Shown: positions 7,231-10,500 of the stretch, in pieces
How the letters are laid out: every line of letters starts with the position of its first letter
Position numbering within the stretch: position 1 is the first letter of the stretch
Assembly (NCBI RefSeq): GCF_001870675.1
Contig: NZ_MEHT01000046.1
Location: 62,001 to 126,000 of the forward strand
Direction of reading: 5' to 3'
DNA length: 64,000 bases
Origin: Roseinatronobacter thiooxidans
GTDB taxonomy: Bacteria > Pseudomonadota > Alphaproteobacteria > Rhodobacterales > Rhodobacteraceae
The notes under the pieces: generated by a model
The model's input: only the letters and a program-made list of their open reading frames with translations
What the model was told of the DNA's origin: nothing
Databases searched by the model: none
Program-made: the position numbers and the translations under genes

Positions 7231-7851
7231 GTGACCAAACGCACGTCTGCCAAGTACAAACTCGACCGCCGTATGGGCGAAAACATCTGGGGCCGTCCGA
7301 AAAGCCCTGTGAACCGCCGCGAATATGGCCCCGGCCAGCACGGCCAGCGCCGCAAGGGCAAATTGTCGGATTTCGGCACCCAGCTGCGCGCCAAGCAAAA
7401 GCTGAAGGGCTATTACGGCGATCTGACCGAAAAGCAGTTCCGCCGCATCTATGCCGAGGCAGAGCGCGTCAAGGGTGATACAGGCGAAAACCTGATCGGC
7501 CTGCTGGAGCGCCGCCTTGATGCCGTGATCTACCGCGCGAAATTTGTGCCAACAGTGTTTGCGGCCCGCCAGTTCGTGAACCACGGCCATGTCACTGTGA
7601 ATGGCGCGCGCGTCAACATCCCCAGCTACCGCGTCAAGGAAGGCGATGTCATCGCAATCCGCGACAAGTCCAAGCAACTGGCCATCGTGCTGGAAGCTGT
7701 TGGTCTGGCAGAGCGTGATGTGCCTGATTACATGGAAGTCGACCACTCCAAGATGACCGCCACGTTTGTGCGCACACCATCCTTGGGCGACGTTCCCTAT
7801 CCGGTTCAGATGGAACCAAACCTTGTGGTCGAATTCTACGCGAAGAACTGA
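7231..7851 (+). CDS. rpsD: 30S ribosomal protein S4
   Basis: This primary 16S-rRNA-binding protein of the small subunit is 206 residues long, the normal size. The N-terminal S4 domain starts [20 protein letters not shown], with [13 protein letters not shown] nearby. The S4 RNA-binding fold (about 95-160) contains [12 protein letters not shown] and [20 protein letters not shown] chose GTG 7231 because the ideal AAGGAG lies 8 nt upstream and the known N-terminus begins there; a longer upstream reading has no family similarity. The gene is monocistronic, with its own promoter and a strong intrinsic terminator at 7878-7908, rather than being in the alpha operon. Confidence 0.97.
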
Positions 7852-7877
7852 TCTTCGCCGCCACAACCGGACTATTC

Positions 7878-7908
7878 AAAAGCCCTGCCAATCCGGCAGG
7901 GCTTTTTT
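7878..7908 (+). terminator. Intrinsic terminator of rpsD
   Basis: AGCCCTGCC (7881-7889) and GGCAGGGCT (7895-7903) form a perfect 9-bp stem with loop AATCC. The A run before and the T run after it make the hairpin usable in both directions. Confidence 0.9.
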
Positions 7909-7913
7909 CGTGC

Positions 7914-7991
7914 CCTGCCCCTGCGCGGGTTCCAAGCGGCGCGCAAGGGTGGGTGGGTGGGCGTGACGCTTGGAACCCGCGCAGGGGCAGG
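7914..7991. repeat. Perfect 25-bp inverted repeat with a G-quadruplex motif in its loop
   Basis: Arms 7914-7938 and 7967-7991 are exact reverse complements (25 of 25), separated by 28 nt. The spacer holds four GGG runs separated by single T at 7947-7961, the archetype of a very stable parallel G-quadruplex. The element sits between the rpsD terminator and the stop codon of the convergent TIGR02302 gene at 8023. Confidence 0.9.
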
Positions 7992-8022
7992 CTGGATATA
8001 TAAAGCCCCAAAGCGGGCGCGT

Positions 8023-10500
8023 TCAGAAGCGGTCCAGCAACCGGCGCAGGTAATCCAACTCGGCCTCGGGGCGGTCCAGTTCGGCAGAACGGCGGCGCAA
8101 TTCTTCCAGCAAATCCTGTGCGCGGCGATAGACATCTTCGCCCTGCAACAGGTTGTCATCAGTGCCCACTTCGCCGCCCTGATTGCGGTCGCGCCCCAGC
8201 GGGTCGCGGCTGGTGCCATCGCCGCCCCGCTCGCTGCCGGCCTGATCGCCCTGCTGCTCGCGCTGGTCTTGCGCGCGGGCCTCGTTCATGGCGCGCATCC
8301 CGTCGCGCATGGCTTCCATGGCATCGGCCTGACGGCTTAGCGCCTCGCCCGTCTCGCCATTCTCCAGCGCCTCGGCTGCGTCTTCCATCGCGCGCTGCGC
8401 ACGCTCCAGCGCCTCTAGCGCGGCATCGCCTTCGGGGGTGCCCTCGCCGGGCAGGGGTTGCAGTTGCTGGTCGCGCAACTGGTCAGCCAGACCGCGCTGC
8501 CGCTCGCCAAGCGCACGTCCTTGGCCCTCGCCCTCGCCTTCTCCCTGTTCGCCATCGCCACGCTCTTCACCATTGCGGAATTCATCCTGCAATTCGTTGA
8601 ACGTGTCGTCGGACAGGTTCTGCTGCTCGCGCAGCGTCTCGCCCAGACCTTCCATCGCCTGATCGCCGGGCATGCCTTCGCCGCCCTGCCCTTCGGCCAC
8701 CTGCAAATTCTCCAGCAGCGCATTCAACTGCGCCAGAAGCTCTGCCGCCTCGTCCATGCGGCCTTCTTCCATCAGCTCCTGAATCCGGTCCAGCAACTCC
8801 TGAATCTGGTCTTGGGTAATCTCCATGCTCTCGTCATCCATCGGCGGCTCGCCCCGTTCGCGCGGCTGTTCGGCAAGCTGGCGCATGTAATCGCGCATCG
8901 CTTCGCGCAATTCTTCCATCAATTCGGCAATCTCGGCGGGGTCGGCGCCGTTGCGCACGGCTTCATCCAGCATTTCCTGTGCGCGGCGCAGACGTTCGCG
9001 GGCATCTGCCAACTCGCCTTCTTCCAGCAACACCGCCAGATCCCACATCTTCTCTGACAACTCGTCGCGCAAAGCGTCATCCATGCGGCCCTGATCCAGA
9101 CTGGCCAGCAGCATGTCGCGCGCCTCGACAAAGCGGATCCGCCCCTCGACCGAGCGGAAAGCCTCTTGCGGCCTATGCCCGATGGCTTTCATCAGGTCCG
9201 CCACGCGGTGTGCATTCTCGCGCGTCCATAGCAGATCGCGGCGCAATTCGATCACCGCCGCCGCCATCGGATCGAAGAACCGCCGCCCCGGCAACACCAT
9301 CTGCGTGGCCTCGGTCATGTCAGTCTGGCCGCGTGCATCTTCGACTTGCAGCGCAATCGTCACCGGCAGGTTGGCCCAAGGGTGCTGCGAGAAATCCTCG
9401 ATGAAGGCATCTTCAATCTCGCTGCGTGACCCTGATGCGGGCATCGGCAGGGGCAAAGCCAGATCATTGCGCGGCTCGGGGTCTGCTGCCAGACCAAAGC
9501 GCCGCTCGACATTCTCAAGGTCCAGCGCAACGCGCACCTCGCCATCCACGACGCCGTAATCATCGCTGGCACTGAAATCCTGACGCATCAGCCCGCCGCG
9601 TTCCCGCTCGGCGCTGCCGCGCAGTGCTACATTTGGCGGCTGGTCCACCAAAGCCACCACTTCCCAATCGCGCCCCGCAGGCCCGCGCACTGTCAAGCGG
9701 CCAGAGCGTTCAATCTCGAAATCCTGCGCCATGTCGGTCGGGTCATATTCACCCCTGTCAGACAGACTTTCCTGCACCGACATAATGCCTTGCTGCCCGT
9801 AAAACCGGACCGTTACGCGGCTGCCTTGGGGCAGGTCCAGCCGCACGCGGTCCACCTCGTTCAGATACAGGCTTGGGCGGCCCGTATAGCTGGGCGGCTG
9901 CACCCAGACTTCCCATGACGGGCCAAGCGCCACGGCTTCGGCACGGCCCGGGAGCTGCGCGATTTCAGGCAATTCCGACACGCGCGAAGGTGCGCCGAAC
10001 AGCAGCGCCACCACAAAGCCCGTCAGCGCCACATAGCGCAGGCCAAAGCGGTCGAATCGCGCCAGACGCGTATCACCCCTGACCGCGCGCGCATGCAACA
10101 GCCGCGCCTGCATCCGCGCCAGATGCGCAGCCCAGACGCGGCGAGAGGCCATGTCCTGCGCGCCAATCGCCTGCTCATCTGCCAAGGTGCTGATAGGCCG
10201 ACCGGGCATGGAGGCATCTAACCTGTCTGCCGCCTCGGACCGGGTGGGGATGCGCAAGCGCCAGAAGCCCAGACCAAAGGCCACCACCAGCGCCACCGCC
10301 GCGCCCAGAACCGCGGACAAGGTCCAGACAGGCGGCAAAACGTCCTGCACCCCGAACCCAAGCGCCGCGATCCCGAACAACAGGATCGTCGTGAAAGGCC
10401 AGAAGGCGCGTGCCAGCCGCTCTGCCCACAGCCCTGCAAGTGTGCCGCGCAAGGCGCGCGTCAGGGCGGGGTTGGTGTCGCTGGGTTTGCGTCTGCGCAT
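8023..10500 (-). CDS. TIGR02302/DUF4175 family membrane protein
   Basis: An 825-residue protein conserved in alphaproteobacteria under the name TIGR02302, with no established function. The N-terminus has three membrane segments (about residues 33-52, 58-80 and 155-172). A large, presumably periplasmic beta-rich region follows (about 190-430). The C-terminal half is rich in Glu, Gln, Arg and Met and reads as long helices or coiled coil (repeated AAELL, ALENLQ, EEGELADAR-type segments), including a low-complexity Gly/Glu tract near residue 630. It lies 32 nt downstream of lysA and is the last gene of the argH operon, a placement common in this group. Confidence 0.85.
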   Translation of the reverse strand: MRRRKPSDTNPALTRALRGTLAGLWAERLARAFWPFTTILLFGIAALGFGVQDVLPPVWTLSAVLGAAVALVVAFGLGFWRLRIPTRSEAADRLDASMPGRPISTLADEQAIGAQDMASRRVWAAHLARMQARLLHARAVRGDTRLARFDRFGLRYVALTGFVVALLFGAPSRVSELPEIAQLPGRAEAVALGPSWEVWVQPPSYTGRPSLYLNEVDRVRLDLPQGSRVTVRFYGQQGIMSVQESLSDRGEYDPTDMAQDFEIERSGRLTVRGPAGRDWEVVALVDQPPNVALRGSAERERGGLMRQDFSASDDYGVVDGEVRVALDLENVERRFGLAADPEPRNDLALPLPMPASGSRSEIEDAFIEDFSQHPWANLPVTIALQVEDARGQTDMTEATQMVLPGRRFFDPMAAAVIELRRDLLWTRENAHRVADLMKAIGHRPQEAFRSVEGRIRFVEARDMLLASLDQGRMDDALRDELSEKMWDLAVLLEEGELADARERLRRAQEMLDEAVRNGADPAEIAELMEELREAMRDYMRQLAEQPRERGEPPMDDESMEITQDQIQELLDRIQELMEEGRMDEAAELLAQLNALLENLQVAEGQGGEGMPGDQAMEGLGETLREQQNLSDDTFNELQDEFRNGEERGDGEQGEGEGEGQGRALGERQRGLADQLRDQQLQPLPGEGTPEGDAALEALERAQRAMEDAAEALENGETGEALSRQADAMEAMRDGMRAMNEARAQDQREQQGDQAGSERGGDGTSRDPLGRDRNQGGEVGTDDNLLQGEDVYRRAQDLLEELRRRSAELDRPEAELDYLRRLLDRF

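Follow-up and report, generated by a model that had tools for sequence, protein, structure and literature searches.

Short dispersed intergenic palindromes, often situated near stop codons, are known from E. coli and other bacteria as REP and BIME elements, and REPs share a common consensus motif and short loops. Intrinsic terminators are likewise GC-rich hairpins with an oriented location at gene 3′ ends, and they carry a U-tract. A quadruplex-hairpin-duplex switch in E. coli, reportedly described by Kaplan in 2016, combines a hairpin and a G-rich structure as does the element presented here, but is said to have its G-rich runs in the hairpin stems, whereas ours lie in the loop. Paracoccus denitrificans is a member of the same order as the Roseinatronobacter thiooxidans strain studied here. 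Its nasT promoter contains a DNA quadruplex affecting transcription (PMC5123632), which differs from our motif in sequence, is 21 nt long with longer linkers and lies 150 nt upstream of the gene; the accessible part of that article makes no mention of a hairpin setting. The TMECO intrastrand triplex repeats also unite a hairpin and a G-rich structure in one element, but according to the available sections of PMC4666352 their G-rich runs belong to the hairpin/triplex stems and not, as here, to a loop. Dispersed quadruplex-forming repeats of Xanthomonas and Nostoc are described in the accessible text of PMC4692102 as heptameric tandem arrays of GGGAATC and GGGGA[C/T]T; paired arrays can make inverted repeats of the G-run, whereas in our case unrelated arms enclose one motif. 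As far as their available text goes, two published surveys limit the loop, RepRanger to 11 nt by default (PMC12306157) and another to 8 nt for loop or spacer (PMC13155455), so that loops of 15 nt or more would escape RepRanger and both surveys are, at these settings, blind to loops of this size. Among the open-licence papers listed, judged by titles and abstract openings, we found no description of Rhodobacteraceae quadruplex motifs in the loops of gene-end palindromes, although one may exist elsewhere. A dispersed set at defined gene ends, in which the quadruplex motif is conserved and the stem is free but pairing, makes it testable with simple reporters whether bacterial quadruplexes serve natural functions under selection.

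The element is located in a window of 64,000 nucleotides, meaning the whole stretch of DNA that was analysed, and had been pointed out in an earlier note on this sequence. Its two perfect 25-bp outer arms (7914..7938 and 7967..7991, no strand) were recovered by the inverted-repeat search with 25/25 positions pairing, and inward extension gives 31 nt at 94%. The 28-nt spacer contains GGGTGGGTGGGTGGG, a predicted four-tract quadruplex motif of the type (GGGT)3GGG, at 7947..7961 on the + strand, which reads CCCACCCACCCACCC on the − strand, the sense strand of the neighbouring TIGR02302 gene; arms and four-GGG spacer are exactly as the earlier note had read them. The + strand is predicted to fold as a single long hairpin with the G-run at its tip. 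Inside the 25-bp stem this RNA fold has one G-A mismatch (G7939 opposite A7966) and then a short inner stem, in which CGCGC of the left inner part (7939..7944) pairs with 7961-7965 including one G-T, the right inner part (CGTGA) occupying 7962..7966. Folding energies, from a model without a quadruplex term, are −67.0 kcal/mol (RNA) and −43.2 kcal/mol (DNA) for the + strand and −62.4 and −38.8 kcal/mol for the − strand, and 0 of 200 shuffles were equally stable in each of the four folds. The repeat is the longest and first-listed inverted repeat in the 64-kb window, for which about 8e-9 perfect arm pairs of this kind are expected per 64 kb (base composition, spacer up to 60 nt).

On one side the element faces rpsD (7231..7851, + strand; identity confirmed by NCBIfam), a convergent neighbour whose stop lies 62 nt before it. 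An ordinary stem-loop terminator of rpsD with a T-run on the + strand (7878..7906), separate from the element, was reported by our in-house terminator finder and not by the consensus scan. On the other side a TIGR02302-like gene (8023..10500, − strand) ends with its stop codon at 8023-8025, 31 nt from the element. The gene shows a full-length match to TIGR02302 below the curated cut-off (348.6 of 394.3 bits), and the best named match of its protein comes from a MAG of Roseinatronobacter, with 92% identity over the best segment. The placement behind the rpsD terminator and 31 bp from the TIGR02302 stop was thus also described correctly before. When the element was searched against its own genome no second copy of the whole arms was found; the best partial match covers one arm end (19/19), and a second match of 26/26 spans the G-run together with the left inner flank and three bases of the arm. 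As there are partial matches only, an explanation as a sequence repeat was rejected, and so was a known RNA family, as Rfam gave no match at gathering score either in window positions 7700-8200 (12 weak matches) or in 16 loci.

The 15-mer of the loop is present in seven copies in the own genome, where 0.010-0.015 are expected, and all seven are enclosed by inverted arms (13, 17, 17, 23, 25, 25 and 27 bp), which have at most two mismatches each and are unrelated in sequence between copies. Carriers make up 17 of 24 genomes in the genus (own included; several others incomplete), none of the 16 other Alphaproteobacteria of the genus search, and 28 of 296 genomes in the family sample, among them G071 with 72 matches in one genome, a few of them overlapping. 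Outside the family the 15-mer was absent from the class sample (0/285, being 290 genomes minus the own and four of the family) and present in seven of 232 genomes of the phylum sample, and at none of the eight loci from these seven genomes is it enclosed by a repeat (scores 4 to 6). Copy number ranges from 0 to 72 matches between genomes and from 0 to 37 within one genus.

Copies were fetched in part (e.g. 12 G071 sites, and 11 out of 37 in G015) and gave 126 non-redundant ones, from which five too close to a contig end were left out, so that 121 were examined. An enclosing repeat scoring at least 12 was found for 97/121 family copies compared to 5/600 flank-swap controls, and one scoring at least 10 for 108/121 compared to 22/600. 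Repeats at loci of the family sample are weaker (17 of 30 copies score at least 12 and 24 of 30 at least 10) than among the remaining 91 copies (80 and 84, respectively), and L074 and both L086 copies show no repeat of note (scores 5-7). In the 464 kb of own sequence, 12 repeats score at least 13; three of these, the window's included, score at least 14 with a loop of at least 12 nt, and in the remaining nine the loop measures 3-10 nt. Quadruplex motif and repeat recur as one unit, which bears out the view that this is more than a chance palindrome. Since repeats are frequent in the family and absent from all eight loci outside, the pairing of quadruplex motif and palindrome is a Rhodobacteraceae trait in these samples.

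The same outside loci make it hardly credible that the palindrome is a mutational by-product, in which the quadruplex would stall replication and template switching would build the palindrome around it. Templated copying would indeed produce arms like these, arbitrary in sequence and almost perfectly matched, but the 15-mers outside the family have no palindrome, and the position and orientation relative to stop codons given below also speak against it. Replication orientation was considered as well and dropped, one G071 contig having elements on both strands. As a side observation, at least nine of the 98 non-own listed genus matches are less than 100 bp from a contig end, contig sizes being known for part of them (G006:C51:16, G006:C62:2, G008:C234:48, G009:C217:29, the end of G009:C220, G010:C107:31, the end of G010:C66, G012:C103:54 and the end of G012:C227), which gives the impression that the hairpin interrupts sequencing or assembly.

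As dispersed extragenic palindromes the elements resemble REPs, but the own-genome copies with their seven sets of unrelated arms have no common stem consensus, and the stem is mostly free and the loop fixed. A GCGCCC-type arm, present in 40 of 145 elements counted over all genomes, many of them from G015 and G071, brings some genomes nearer to REP. The Y1 tyrosine transposase PF01797 was found in 2 of 21 genomes and is absent from the own genome, G015 and G071, so a RAYT-mobilised REP was rejected; lacking both a common stem and a RAYT in the own genome, the element is not a REP in the strict sense. We also consider it quite improbable that a selfish or passively dispersed palindrome is spread by an unknown mobilising enzyme, with the loop being kept by the mobility mechanism. 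The large differences in copy number, even within one genus, and the recurring GCGCCC-type arm would agree with such a palindrome, but the own genome, G015 and G071 have no Y1/RAYT transposase, and unrelated arms together with an orientation relative to genes are not expected of an insertion sequence. A plasmid search with one of the G015 elements gave no match.

Within the loop it is the G tracts that stay. Among the 15-mers with four intact tracts, 144/171 are in repeats scoring at least 12, compared to 1/25 of those with a broken tract; this count covers 196 fetched 15-mers within three mismatches, taken from exact and one-mismatch searches among the matches listed, leaves out loci L093-L120 and L181-L200, and under-samples far variants. 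In the loop variants of hairpins in the fetched set the linkers change (TTT 132, TCT 18, CTT 10, TTC 5, others 6) and the G tracts do not. Hairpins comparable to these, with fewer intact tracts, nevertheless occur at L096, L097 and L103, loci outside the 171/25 count, and the four-tract rule is therefore strong but not absolute. According to the earlier note its reading would suffer if arms were preserved while the G tracts decay; mostly the reverse is seen, L096 representing a decaying tract.

For the stem, 120 elements have a C-sense gene called; 32 of these share an orthologous upstream gene with others and make up 14 groups (the gene being more than 600 nt away in two of them), and the arms within these groups are, group by group, identical, changed in a matched way or wholly different. 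In seven alignable pairs, hand-chosen from the groups, 159 stem positions include 14 two-sided changes that still pair, 5 one-sided and 4 otherwise; six of the 14 paired changes come from L030/L063, whose alignment is uncertain and without which the counts are 8, 4 and 3, and demanding a good repeat in both species biases towards matched changes. Orthologous sites thus agree with the expectation that the loop is kept while the arms covary. The arms GCGCGCCCTTGCG/CGCAAGGGCGCGC are identical across several species at L035, L054 and L148, which have phnI orthologues upstream, and also at L049, unlike most sites, where the arms diverge; at L035 one arm abuts a purine-rich AGGAGG.

The junction of rpsD and TIGR02302 could be followed directly, as the two genes adjoin in six of 26 named relatives examined. 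L099 and L102 have a hairpin with again other arms, four intact tracts and a loop reversed compared to the window; L096 has a hairpin with other arms, three GGG tracts and one GG; at L097 the C-rich loop of the hairpin is a different one; and at L093 (the closest relative, 92% identity) and L113 no hairpin was found at this junction. Absence from close relatives, named beforehand as evidence against the earlier note's reading, is therefore observed in part at this one site: two relatives keep an intact hairpin, two a variant one and two none. L103, where the neighbouring gene is another one, also has a hairpin, and its C-rich loop is shorter. At the L099 and L102 junctions it is the sense strand of rpsD that carries the C-rich run, which gives the impression that loops or entire elements are able to flip.

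In order to describe the position relative to genes, the 145 elements with a repeat score of at least 12 were divided into classes. Tandem gene pairs account for 60 elements with a sense C-rich strand and 10 with a sense G-rich strand, one of the latter in the own genome (L032); a further 60 elements are convergent, 6 divergent, 2 inside genes and 7 unclassified. Counting one per orthologous C-sense upstream gene, the tandem ratio is 46 to 10 (p=1.2e-6). Genes were called with an in-house codon-usage caller trained on the window, and for 16 C-sense genes a comparison with NCBIfam/Pfam gave a family match on the called strand in every case, which for TIGR02302 and for a baseplate protein cut by its locus stays below the curated cut-off. 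The genes compared are ordinary and diverse, including NadC, MsrA, PhnI, Smr, the gene-transfer-agent baseplate protein, thymidylate synthase, a GyrB-type subunit, release factor 3, GlyS and GcvH. Of the 60 tandem C-sense elements, 44 start less than 20 nt past the stop codon, some overlapping it. At convergent pairs a stop less than 20 nt away belongs to the C-sense gene in 26/60 and to the G-sense gene in 12/60, the C-sense stop is the nearer one in 42/60, and the elements adjoin it even across many wide gaps.

By this strand rule, and with 31 nt compared to 62 nt to rpsD, the partner gene in the window is TIGR02302, the nearer and correctly oriented one, and not rpsD. In its mRNA the loop would be C-rich, with the G-run belonging to the template strand. 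A nucleoid, replication or recombination site, suggested before, is unsupported because the elements are gene-oriented and close to stop codons.

The absence of a U-tract, the long loop and the conserved loop sequence distinguish the element from intrinsic terminators: T4 within 10 nt past the element was found in 1/141 cases on the C-sense strand and 4/141 on the other, and lacking a U-tract, the element does not belong to the intrinsic terminators. Beyond the element, U-tract terminators are less frequent than at control gene ends (pooled 13/80 vs 49/156, p=0.013; tandem 6/48 vs 32/122, Fisher 0.066; convergent 7/32 vs 17/34, 0.023), but this signal of terminator replacement is weak, its control consists of own-genome gene ends only, and the searched stretches are unequal in size. 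In convergent pairs the interval from the G-sense stop to the element contains a U-tract terminator in 10/46 with at least 25 nt of room, an arrangement also seen in the window, and in 0/14 with less. At 17 of the 60 tandem C-sense sites the element sits less than 30 nt before the next predicted start, and a full transcription stop is therefore unlikely there.

These positions could also be read without any quadruplex function. A REP-like hairpin in the sense RNA beside the stop codon might protect the 3′ end or influence the ribosome, its CCCACCCACCCACCC loop being bound by a protein and the quadruplex being a side effect; we regard this as rather unlikely, but to be taken seriously. It agrees with the sense orientation within about 20 nt of stop codons, with the operon-like arrangement of the 17 tandem sites just mentioned and with the C-rich loops having fewer tracts at L097 and L103. 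Moreover, the available text of PMC12306157 reports ribosome stalling by REPs situated no more than 15 nt from a stop. However, a loop usually built of four three-base tracts and single-base linkers is typical of quadruplexes, and the stem mismatches also point away from a sense RNA.

Among 77 deduplicated stem mismatches, 68 keep a G on the G-rich strand (G-T 31, G-G 21, G-A 16) and seven have a C on it. A stem working as sense RNA should favour G-U on the C-rich strand. On the C-sense strand, however, the non-deduplicated mismatches are G-U in 4 and A-C in 33 cases, the opposite of the expected preference, with 1 to 20 in the tandem C-sense class and 2 to 9 in the convergent class; the divergent and G-sense classes show the same direction and are too small to judge. 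As a control, 72 terminators contain one G-U and one A-C, too few to calibrate the comparison. The asymmetry fits a folded G strand, but it would equally follow if the sense RNA simply favoured C rather than G, so it is a pointer and not a proof; together with the four-tract tendency it makes us lean to a structure of the G strand, which is the template strand of the adjacent gene. For the strand asymmetry itself, selection and mutation bias are both possible. A mismatch that seemed constant five pairs away from the loop was dropped as a candidate feature, the repeat finder being blind to mismatches less than four pairs from the loop, and the strand asymmetry alone was retained.

A folded G strand could also be an RNA. 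If antisense or convergent read-through transcription arrived from the 3′ side, the G-strand RNA might fold into a hairpin with an RNA quadruplex and halt before the gene. The mismatches are those that a G-strand fold tolerates, in the same direction in every orientation class (two of them small), the elements adjoin the C-sense stop even in wide gaps, and in the window a ribosomal-protein gene, rpsD, reads towards the element. Such a barrier is nevertheless improbable: it would depend on putative antisense transcripts, the G strand of tandem pairs running antisense to either gene.

The reading we prefer, which we consider quite possible but short of probable, is that the window copy is one of a set of Rhodobacteraceae gene-3′-end elements, a hairpin of the terminator or REP type with a template-strand quadruplex as its conserved part. 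The elements are dispersed, conserve the loop, change their stems in a matched way, lie near stop codons in one prevailing strand orientation and have no U-tract, which suggests a new kind of gene-end signal. We infer from this arrangement that the element may mark or make the 3′ end of the C-sense transcript. Its stem is long, GC-rich and free in sequence provided it pairs, and its loop is mostly fixed, the template strand presenting four GGG tracts separated by single-base linkers and the sense RNA CCCACCCACCCACCC. A polymerase leaving the gene would meet a template strand able to fold into hairpin and quadruplex and would be stopped or slowed there, and the transcript would keep an exonuclease-resistant 3′ hairpin. 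Such a stop or pause with a hairpin-protected 3′ end is, judging from sequence, the most likely mode of action. In the window it would act on TIGR02302 (− strand) and, from the other side, might serve as a backup to the rpsD terminator (+ strand). It is conceivable, if on the unlikely side, that a new bacterial transcription boundary is represented here, in which a template-strand DNA quadruplex on a stem of arbitrary sequence would end transcription without a U-tract, kept by structure rather than sequence and confined to Rhodobacteraceae.

Several observations stand against the preferred gene-end reading. The C-rich loop of the sense RNA is conserved exactly as much as the G-rich strand, and therefore a loop-binding protein explains the loop conservation equally well. 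L096, L097 and L103 break the four-tract rule, ten tandem elements are G-sense and the loop is flipped in L099 and L102; the repeats are also weaker in the wider family sample, and the copy number varies from none to the 72 matches of G071.

Some minor observations concern individual elements. A 28-bp perfect inverted repeat at L200:332 (C1 of the own genome), 26 nt past a predicted gene end, has a 15-nt loop without the quadruplex motif. L038, L053, L032 and L204 have a second hairpin within the loop, on the same side of the quadruplex motif in all four. C41 of the own genome carries a pair of elements about 400 bp apart (L031:1447-1540 and L031:1850-1930), and the second comes after the end of a gene-transfer-agent baseplate (megatron) gene, where the orthologous site L053 shows a matched A-T to G-C change in the stem.
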